Assembly (NCBI GenBank): GCA_903884425.1
Contig: CAISEP010000016.1
Location: 124,001 to 188,000, forward strand
DNA: 64,000 bases
From: an uncultured Caulobacterales bacterium
Lineage (GTDB): Bacteria > Pseudomonadota > Alphaproteobacteria > Caulobacterales > Caulobacteraceae
Reading direction: 5' to 3'
Shown: piece by piece, positions 15,962-18,317 of the stretch
Layout: the number at the start of each line of letters is the position of its first letter
Numbering within the stretch: position 1 is the stretch's first letter
Notes under the pieces: generated by a model
What the model saw: the letters and a program-made list of their open reading frames with translations, nothing else
Databases searched by the model: none
What the model was told of the DNA's origin: nothing
Translations under genes and position numbers: made by a program

Positions 15962-16534
15962 TTGGCGAAGACACTCAAGCACACGGTGATCGCGGCTCTG
16001 GCCTGCGGGGCCCTGTTGGGACTGGCCGGATGCGAGACGGCGACCCCCTATCAGCCCCTGAACACCGCCCACCGGGATGCCGGCGGCTACAGCGACCACC
16101 AGATCGAGGCCAACCGGTTCCAGGTCTCGTTCAGCGGCAATTCGGTCACCTCCCGGGAGACGGTGGAGCGCTACCTCCTGTACCGCTCGGCGGAGCTGAC
16201 CCTGGCCCAGGGCTATGACTGGTTCGCGGCCACCGGCCGCAGCACCGACCGCAAGACCGAGACCTTTGCCGAGCCGGGCCTGGGCTGCGGCTACGGCCCG
16301 GGCTGGTGCGGCGGCTTCTGGGGCCCCCGCTGGCGCTATTATCGCCACGGCGTGTGGGGGGCGTGGGACCCGTGGATGGGCCAGCCGCTGGATGTGATGG
16401 AGATCACCCAGTACACGGCGACGGCGGAGATCGTCATGAACAAGGGCCCCAAGCCGGCCGGGGACATGAATGCCTTCGACGCCCGGGAAGTGCTGCAGCA
16501 CCTGAGCCAGGACCTGCACCGCCCGTCCATCTGA
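15962..16534 (+). CDS. CC0125/CC1285-type lipoprotein
   Basis: 190 residues from a TTG start preceded by TAGGAG. The leader ends in a lipobox (LLGLAGCE), so the mature protein is anchored through Cys. The body has a conserved alpha/beta pattern (ANRFQVSFSGNSVTSRETVERYLLYRSAELTLAQGY, DWFAA) and a Gly/Trp/Tyr-rich loop (GWCGGFWGPRWRYYRHG) before TATAEIVMNKG. This matches the uncharacterised lipoprotein family named after Caulobacter genes CC0125/CC1285; the function is unknown. Confidence 0.82.
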   Translation: MAKTLKHTVIAALACGALLGLAGCETATPYQPLNTAHRDAGGYSDHQIEANRFQVSFSGNSVTSRETVERYLLYRSAELTLAQGYDWFAATGRSTDRKTETFAEPGLGCGYGPGWCGGFWGPRWRYYRHGVWGAWDPWMGQPLDVMEITQYTATAEIVMNKGPKPAGDMNAFDAREVLQHLSQDLHRPSI

Positions 16535-16563: not shown

Positions 16564-17370
16564 ATGGACCATTTTCCCGCCTTCCTGCCCCTGGCGGGTC
16601 GCCGTGTGGTGATCGTCGGCTCGGGCGAGGCGGCCGATGCCAAGGCGCGCCTGTTCGACGGGTCTCCGGCGGTGCTGGTCCGGCTGGAGGTGCCGGACCC
16701 GGCGGTGCTGGCGGCGGCGGACCTGGTGTTCATCGCCCTGCCCGACGGACCGGCGCTGGAGGCCGCCCTCGCCCAGGCGCGGGCCGGCCGGGCCCTGGTC
16801 AATGTTGTGGACCGGCCGGAGCTTTCGGCCTTCACCACCCCCTCGATCCTGGACCGGGGCACGGTGGTGGCCGCCATCGGCACCGGCGGGGCAGCGCCGA
16901 TGCTGGCCACCCGCCTGCGCCAGCAGCTGGAGGCCGTCACGCCCCCCCGGCTGGGTGAGCTGGCCGACTTCCTGCGGGCGCGTCAGGGGCGGATCCGGCA
17001 GCAGTTTCCCGATCTGGTGGCCCGGCGGCGGGTGCTGCGGCGCATCCTGGAGGGCCCGACCGCCGCCGCCGTGCTGGCCGGGGACCTGGACGCCGCACAG
17101 ACGGCCTTCGAGGCTGCCCTGACGGACGCGGCCCCGACCGGTGCTGTCTGGGAGCTGGAGGTCGGTGCCGATGCGGAGGACCTGACCCTGCGGGACGTCC
17201 GGCGGCTGGGGGCCGCGGATCGGCTGTGGCTGGAGGGAGACGTGCCGGACACGGTCCTGGCGCTCGCCCGGCGGGACGCCCCGCGGGCGGTCCGGCCGAC
17301 GGATGCAGAGGTCCGGGCCTGGCTGGCGGCGGGGGAAGTCATCTGTCGCCTGAGGCGCGTGGGCGGCTAG
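16564..17370 (+). CDS. CysG-N-type precorrin-2 dehydrogenase/ferrochelatase with a vestigial SUMT-like tail
   Basis: 268 residues. Residues about 10-125 are the NAD-binding Met8/CysG domain: GRRVVIVGSGEAADAKARL, then VNVVDRPELSAFTTPSILDRG (with the conserved VVD aspartate) and AAIGTGGAAPMLATRLR. Residues about 126-190 are the dimerisation helices. These make siroheme from precorrin-2. Residues 194-268 resemble the start of a uroporphyrinogen methyltransferase domain (DLTLRDVRRLGAADRLWL, VLALARRDAPRAV, VICRLRRVGG), but the GAGPGD glycine loop is gone (VGADAED) and the chain stops at the VRLKGGDP position. So the protein looks like CysG that has lost its catalytic SUMT domain. cobA/cysG partners are not adjacent. 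Confidence 0.85.
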   Translation: MDHFPAFLPLAGRRVVIVGSGEAADAKARLFDGSPAVLVRLEVPDPAVLAAADLVFIALPDGPALEAALAQARAGRALVNVVDRPELSAFTTPSILDRGTVVAAIGTGGAAPMLATRLRQQLEAVTPPRLGELADFLRARQGRIRQQFPDLVARRRVLRRILEGPTAAAVLAGDLDAAQTAFEAALTDAAPTGAVWELEVGADAEDLTLRDVRRLGAADRLWLEGDVPDTVLALARRDAPRAVRPTDAEVRAWLAAGEVICRLRRVGG

Positions 17371-17376
17371 GGGCCG

Positions 17377-17850
17377 TCAGCGCCGGGGACGGTCCCCGTC
17401 GTCATCGGACCGACCGGCCGAGGTGCCGGGGGCGAGGATGGACCGGGCGAGCAGGGTCACCAGCTCAGGATTGCGGAAGGCGATCAGGCCGATGGCCACG
17501 GCGGCCCCTGCGGCCACCACCGGACGCTCCTTGATCATCTCGCTGGCCCGCTCCACCAGATTGGTGCCGTTGAGGTCCAGTCCCTCGAGCCCGAAGGCCC
17601 GCAGGTCGAGGCCCTGGGGCGCGTCCCGTTCGTCAGCGCGCTTCGGCGCGGCGCGGCGGGTGGCGATCAGGGCCACCAGTCCGGCCACGGCGGCGAACAG
17701 GGCCGCCACCACGGCCGAGGCCCCGGCCGGGCCGATCAGCGGCGAGACGAGGGCAAAGACGGTGAAGGCCGCCGCCACCACCGAGACGATCACGGCGGCC
17801 GCCACGGCGGCTCCGGCGGTCACGGTCTTGAGGGTCTGCTCGATGATCAT
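17377..17850 (-). CDS. hypothetical membrane protein, holin-superfamily-III-like arrangement
   Basis: 157 residues: two long hydrophobic segments at the N-terminus (AAVAAAVIVSVVAAAFTVFALVSPLIG; SAVVAALFAAVAGLVALIATR), a basic loop, then an amphipathic region (NLVERASEMIKERPVVAAGAAVAIGLIAF) and a charged C-terminus. It overlaps the preceding gene by four bases (ATGA), so the two are a coupled membrane-protein pair. Similar pairs with YqjD/ElaB-type proteins occur in enterobacteria (yqjD-yqjE), which suggests but does not prove a stress or ribosome-hibernation-related role. Confidence 0.75.
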   Translation of the reverse strand: MIIEQTLKTVTAGAAVAAAVIVSVVAAAFTVFALVSPLIGPAGASAVVAALFAAVAGLVALIATRRAAPKRADERDAPQGLDLRAFGLEGLDLNGTNLVERASEMIKERPVVAAGAAVAIGLIAFRNPELVTLLARSILAPGTSAGRSDDDGDRPRR

Positions 17851-18317
17851 CGGCGGTTGCCGCCGATCAGCAGGCCGAGGAACAGACCGGCCCCGACGGC
17901 CGCCAGGGCCGTGGTCAGGGGGCGCGCCCTCACCTGCTCCACGATCAGGTCCCGGGCGAGGTCCAGCTGGTCGACGGCCACGTCCGCCGCCTCGTGACCG
18001 ACCAGCTTCATCCGCTCGAACCGCTCGTCCAGGGCGGCGCGGGCCACATCGGTCACCTCCGGCAGGGCCTGACGGCCATGTTCCACCGCGGCACCGGCAT
18101 GGACCACCGCCTCCCGGGCCGCGTCCACCGACTGCCGGAGCTCCTGCACCACCTGTTCGGAGGGCTTGGGTGCCGGCTTGCGGGCCCGCGGCCTGGCCGG
18201 GGCAGACTTCGGCTCAGCGTTCTTGGGCGCAGAGGACTTGGGCGGGGCAGCCTTGCGCGGGGCGGCCTTGCGGGCCCTGGGCGCGTTCGGCGCGGTGTCG
18301 GGGGTCGGATCAGCCAT
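17847..18317 (-). CDS. YqjD/ElaB (DUF883)-like tail-anchored protein with basic Ala/Lys/Pro leader
   Basis: 156 residues: the first 50 are a low-complexity Lys/Ala/Pro-rich leader, 53-120 a helical coiled segment (SEQVVQELRQSVDAAREAVVHAGAAVE, ERFERMKLVGHEAADVAVDQL), and the C-terminus has the DUF883-like RPLTTALAAVGAGLFLGLLIGGNRR single membrane anchor. E. coli YqjD/ElaB are tail-anchored and bind ribosomes in stationary phase. The histone-like basic leader could contact nucleic acid (inference). First gene of the pair; the 169-base upstream gap is shared with the divergent MFS gene. Confidence 0.75.
   Translation of the reverse strand: MADPTPDTAPNAPRARKAAPRKAAPPKSSAPKNAEPKSAPARPRARKPAPKPSEQVVQELRQSVDAAREAVVHAGAAVEHGRQALPEVTDVARAALDERFERMKLVGHEAADVAVDQLDLARDLIVEQVRARPLTTALAAVGAGLFLGLLIGGNRR

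Follow-up and report, generated by a model that had tools for sequence, protein, structure and literature searches.

A half-length siroheme synthase of Caulobacteraceae keeps a methyltransferase stump that probably completes the active site of its partner domain

The locus raises the question of why a siroheme synthase that has lost most of its methyltransferase (SUMT) module should keep the beginning of it. The gene (16564..17370, + strand, as are all features given for it below) lies in the window, i.e. the whole stretch of 64,000 nucleotides that was analyzed. It starts with ATG and encodes a protein of 268 aa, a half-CysG predicted to combine a precorrin-2 dehydrogenase/sirohydrochlorin chelatase with a SUMT remnant. 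Residues 1-186 match the CysG-B module (TIGR01470, CysG N-term, NCBIfam) with 124.1 bits for a cut-off of 62.3, and the CysG_dimeriser domain of Pfam is recognized at residues 129-186 (16948..17121, 1.1e-12), as expected from an earlier note on this DNA, made by reading the sequence, which had described an intact CysG-N domain. The NAD-binding Rossmann domain (residues 1-100, 16564..16863) retains the GxG motif at G19/G21 and the VNVVDRPE motif. Compared with Salmonella CysG it lacks about 20 residues (between positions 30 and 52), the region of the third strand is apparently absent, and a similar shortening is seen in L044 and other alphaproteobacterial relatives. The CysG-B residues K27, N101, R140, R175 and the loop of D104 and P106 are all present; by alignment, D83 (codon 16810..16812) is the equivalent of D104, which in Salmonella is essential for both CysG-B activities (PMC7018833).

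The tail was then identified by profile comparison. On the window protein, PF00590 (TP_methylase) gives only a weak match (residues 203-250, 16.7 bits, cut-off 27.8), and the phmmer alignment of Salmonella CysG (PDB 1pjq) reaches residue 242. When profiles of half-CysG tails and of 19 stand-alone SUMTs are compared, the probability is 98.9% (E = 1.1e-17), and the four tails of the window's clade taken alone still give 91% (E = 9.6e-7). In this alignment the RLRR of the last strand falls on the RLKG of VVRLKGGDP. The remnant thus covers residues 193-268 (17140..17367) with the order beta1-alpha1-beta2-alpha2, its last strand being the VVRLKGGDP strand of SUMT. The alignment made by eye in the earlier note, which ended at the VRLKGGDP position, was right, with a start nearer to about G193 (17140), and the absence of any similarity between tail and SUMT, which would have spoken against it, was not what the profile search returned. 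The SAM loop, GAGPGD in Salmonella, is degenerate (VGADAED by alignment, 17161..17181). As had been noted, the SAM site and the rest of SUMT are gone; the loss amounts to about two thirds of the module. In line with this, the model PRK10637, which describes trifunctional CysG with an intact SUMT and GAGPGD, gives 152.8 bits for a cut-off of 400. The ancestor of the window protein is a trifunctional CysG, and the protein itself cannot make precorrin-2; its restriction to dehydrogenase/chelatase activity, proposed earlier, agrees with a SUMT remnant devoid of its SAM site.

Could a sequencing error or a frameshift after 17370 conceal a full CysG? This is so improbable that we rule it out. No further SUMT-like sequence is present in or next to the window: the only two PF00590 hits of the whole-genome search are located elsewhere, one on another contig and one on the same contig as the window, about 248 kb past it. 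A convergent ORF begins 7 bases past the half-CysG stop, and the nearest relatives, L003 (76% identical) and L004 (58%), have an equal length and the same end. The convergent ORF belongs to a pair of overlapping small genes (17377-17850 and 17847-18317, both on the - strand) with sub-threshold matches to Phage_holin_3_6 and to the DUF883 C-terminal glycine zipper. The gene that immediately precedes the half-CysG, in the same orientation (15962-16534, +), encodes a 190-aa putative lipoprotein with a signal and an LAGC motif, for which a Pfam match was not found; it is possibly co-transcribed with the half-CysG.

The remainder of the siroheme pathway was searched for in the genome. One complete SUMT/CobA, the only TIGR01469 hit of the genome (284 bits), is encoded on another contig (contig 7, 138739-139440), so that the separate cobA called for in the earlier note does exist. 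It lies immediately upstream of a DUF2849 protein, followed by a sulfite reductase with two NIR_SIR hits (140225-141508). Precorrin-2 can therefore be made elsewhere, and siroheme is needed. A profile match to a CbiX-type chelatase was not found in this genome, which makes the half-CysG the obvious chelatase candidate; from its residues and from the absence of CbiX we infer a bifunctional dehydrogenase and ferrochelatase. Each of the 20 half-CysG genomes checked has a stand-alone SUMT above the family cut-off; in full-CysG genomes (G001 and G401, for example) SUMT occurs in fused form only. A link between half-CysG and the absence of CbiX was also considered. The result is mixed (CbiX absent from 13 of the 20 half-CysG genomes, present in 7), and the half form is not a clean predictor; most genomes with SirC-like proteins likewise have no CbiX.

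Homologues were recruited by CysG-B similarity, and half proteins were defined solely by a length below 400 aa, which yielded 122 distinct sequences. L268 (G830:C20), whose CysG frame is shifted and contains an in-frame stop and which is possibly a pseudogene or an assembly error, was left out of all counts. Two relatives, L003 and L004, end where the window protein ends, and the half form at large is widespread. Within the Caulobacteraceae it occurs in genera g1, g3, g4 and g5 and is fixed throughout most of the family as sampled; genomes of genus g2 have a full CysG or, for the most part, no CysG match. The other families of the order have a full CysG or short SirC-like proteins. Sphingomonadales and numerous other alphaproteobacterial families have half forms too, as do at least five families of Pseudomonadota outside the Alphaproteobacteria. 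A decay restricted to one genome is thereby ruled out, since the half form is common to the genus, the family and many other lineages. Searches of the open literature on truncated CysG and on Caulobacter and Sphingomonas siroheme synthases brought up no previous account of the half form. In some genera of the window's family, full-length CysGs (L179-L184) do not group with the half forms, which suggests a replacement or an older second copy.

To place the transitions, a tree was built from CysG-B columns only, so that the tail cannot influence its topology. The full/half label needs 17 changes on this tree (15-17 over bootstrap trees). The number is not exact, since the resolution of the deep branches is poor, and some of the changes might in principle be half proteins that regained their full length. 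At least five changes are forced by well-supported branches. The alphaproteobacterial set alone needs 11 changes, at least 6 of them forced in this way. Two neighbour pairs, each with 100% bootstrap, illustrate the pattern: the half protein L066 with the full-length L057, and L064 with L070. That the half form recurs is not in doubt. Short CysG-like proteins lacking the tail were examined as a next step of loss. The 14 sequences fetched proved to be a SirC-like subfamily (L186-L199; 190-230 aa, an NVED/NTED motif, often a WL ending) that occurs in many Alphaproteobacteria, mostly without CbiX, so that they are no example of tail loss.

Selection on the tail was estimated from dN/dS. Values are saturated over all pairs, and 24 independent close half-CysG pairs were therefore used. 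Tail dN/dS is below 1 in 24 of the 24 pairs, with a median of 0.275 compared to 0.175 for the CysG-B part (0.36 and 0.20, respectively, between the window protein and L003). The stump is under purifying selection, slightly less constrained than the rest of the protein.

The structure check suggested in the earlier note was carried out with an AlphaFold2 monomer model (74 homologues; mean pLDDT 94.1, pTM 0.80), in which the tail forms a beta-alpha-beta-alpha unit with further short elements. Foldseek returned CysG chains as the best matches over the whole length, tail included (TMq 0.80-0.83 for the A chains of most entries and 0.60 for chain B, whose linker differs), then SirC, then SUMT, with about 90 columns on SUMT 1s4d. 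The tail is modelled in the CysG arrangement, which is supportive and not an independent proof, AlphaFold2 having been trained with CysG.

What the stump could be doing is indicated by the Salmonella enzyme. Its SUMT module contributes R260, R261 and D262 to the CysG-B pocket, whose back they form (PMC7018833). The ring C acetate of sirohydrochlorin is held by R260, R261 contributes to the charged pocket with no contact to the ligand, and D262 is placed above the macrocycle, across from D104 (PMC7018833). Substitutions leave the fold unchanged and strongly reduce activity: R260A has an unmeasurable dehydrogenase activity and 3.1 units of chelatase compared to 203, R261A retains 1.4 and 13.6, and D262N 2.5 and 3.4, for dehydrogenase and chelatase respectively (PMC7018833). 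By alignment, the window protein contains the three equivalents, R236, R237 and D238 (17269..17277).

Residues were counted in Salmonella CysG numbering in the 122 half proteins, 76 full CysGs and 39 stand-alone SUMTs. R260 (R236 in the window protein) is an arginine in 122 of 122 half proteins, the top conservation among the 55 remnant columns compared, and this count is not built into the selection, which used only CysG-B similarity and length. At position 262 (window D238), 113 proteins have D and 9 have E; at position 261 (window R237), 83 have R and 39 have A; D104 (window D83) is D in all 122 half proteins and all 76 full CysGs. The SAM loop behaves in the opposite way: G222 is kept in 8 of 122 half proteins as against 76 of 76 full CysGs, and P225 in 14 of 122 as against 75 of 76. 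Among stand-alone SUMTs, R is found at 260 in 7 of 39, and together with D or E at 262 in 3 of 39. This rarity indicates that R260 and D262 are needed neither for SUMT folding nor for catalysis. As judged from these alignments, the stump has held on to residues dispensable for SUMT and given up those on which SUMT depends. The point of truncation varies by lineage: the window protein and Sphingomonadales stop just after the second helix and one strand, and the longest stumps run on to VPGI, where the N-terminal lobe ends. None of the truncation points inspected precedes the RRD motif. The window tail is one of the shortest. R137, which in Salmonella also binds the ring C acetate (PMC7018833), is replaced by T in the window protein, and 94 of 122 half proteins have a residue other than R there; R162 is Q in the window protein. 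With these two changes the binding geometry may differ from that of Salmonella, and R260 would be the main ring C acetate ligand in half proteins where R137 is replaced. Half-CysGs of Sphingomonadales (L028, L030, L033 and others) have ARADA for ARRDA, i.e. R261 replaced by A, often together with P133 replaced by A, which we read as a coupled change of the pocket.

We consider it probable that the stump completes the active site of the partner dehydrogenase/chelatase while a separate CobA carries out the methylation. The separate CobA would make precorrin-2, which would have rendered the fused SUMT redundant, and the SAM site and about two thirds of the length would then have been lost. The first 75 residues would have been kept because their second helix bears R236 and D238, which would project into the dehydrogenase/chelatase cavity, R236 holding the ring C acetate and D238 lying over the macrocycle. 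By analogy, the two residues would do the same job as their Salmonella counterparts, hence the persistence of the stump. The pattern inside the motif fits this explanation, since the position without ligand contact, R261, is the one that is A in 39 of the 122 half proteins. Met8p and SirC, which function without any such segment, speak against it, as do the changed pocket residues at R137 and R162.

Three other explanations have to be weighed against a completed active site. The stump might be a structural plug or dimer support, capping the CysG-B helical domain and stabilizing the swapped dimer, with RRD kept for packing. The first-helix residues L231, R237, A242 and D243 are indeed conserved as well as D262 in half proteins, and the AlphaFold2 model is confident and compact through the tail; part of this conservation (R237, A242, D243) may well be structural. 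As the whole explanation it is nevertheless unlikely, since the top-conserved column is a charged, ligand-binding residue and since the Salmonella substitutions R260A, R261A and D262A/N hardly alter the structure yet cost much of the activity (PMC7018833). An adaptor function, in which this pseudo-SUMT docks the stand-alone CobA for direct handover of precorrin-2, would suit the lability of precorrin-2 (PMC7018833) and the presence of a stand-alone SUMT in the 20 half-CysG genomes. We regard it as very improbable: the need for SUMT activity alone accounts for CobA, the extent of the stump and its sequence outside the core vary greatly between lineages, and the most conserved residues face the CysG-B pocket in the solved enzyme.

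Passive decay, with the tail a functionless relic on its way to full loss, can draw on the missing SAM loop and C-terminal lobe, the shortness of the window tail and a tail dN/dS somewhat above that of the CysG-B part. It is hardly credible in view of purifying selection in every one of the 24 pairs and of an R260 that is invariant over 122 divergent proteins, and no CysG-type protein was seen with the segment wholly lost. The description of the protein in the earlier note as a decayed trifunctional CysG therefore holds for the SUMT remnant and the lost SAM site and fails as simple decay, given selection, recurrence and the retention of R260 and D262. Its alternative, a new structural role for the tail, came close to the explanation favoured here, except that the role is probably an old one retained, R260 and D262 being already known from the CysG-B pocket (PMC7018833).

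More generally, we lean towards the view that in many independent lineages of Pseudomonadota the fused SUMT was trimmed to a remnant without catalysis that now serves only to supply R260 and D262 to the active site of its neighbour. The Salmonella structures did not explain the presence of SUMT residues in the dehydrogenase/chelatase pocket, in which their authors saw, as a speculation, an advantage of the fused enzyme (PMC7018833). Half-CysGs are a natural experiment on this point: where SUMT activity is not needed, the SAM site and the C-terminal lobe are removed and R260 and D262 are kept. If this is true, many genes annotated as siroheme synthase have a defined division of labour between two enzymes, with CobA as the second, and half-CysGs offer a small enzyme for studies of class III chelatases. 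It would also be a clean example of a gene fusion turning irreversible, convergently and at the level of residues, one domain having become part of the active site of the other.

Compared with known systems, the window protein is closest to trifunctional CysG (Salmonella enterica; 1pjq, 6p5x). Rossmann, dimerisation and helical domains and the start of SUMT follow in the same order, D104 and R260-R261-D262 are conserved, and the whole-chain fold match is the best; it differs by its destroyed SAM loop, the missing two thirds or so of SUMT and a Rossmann domain shorter by about 20 residues. Stand-alone SUMTs (CobA/SirA/NirE; 1s4d, 2ybo) have an N-terminal lobe homologous to the tail and match PF00590/TIGR01469 in full, which the window protein does not; they keep the SAM loop and mostly lack R260/D262, the reverse of the window tail. 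SirC, a monofunctional precorrin-2 dehydrogenase (3dfz), shares the Rossmann and dimerisation core (TMq 0.53), but it has no SUMT remnant and a Ser at the D104 position and leaves the chelatase step to SirB/CbiX, whereas the window protein has D83 in a genome with no CbiX match. The alphaproteobacterial SirC-like proteins of 190-230 aa likewise differ, nearly all having NVED/NTED in place of NVVDRPE. Met8p of yeast (1kyq) combines dehydrogenase and chelatase with SUMT on a separate protein, as predicted here, and its sequence similarity to the window protein is marginal (phmmer, E = 0.22). Proteins of the Met8p type end after the helical domain; Met8p never had a SUMT segment and lacks equivalents of R260/D262 (PMC7018833), in contrast to the 75-residue SUMT-homologous tail found here. 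By this comparison the window protein would work like Met8p, yet by type it is a reduced CysG.
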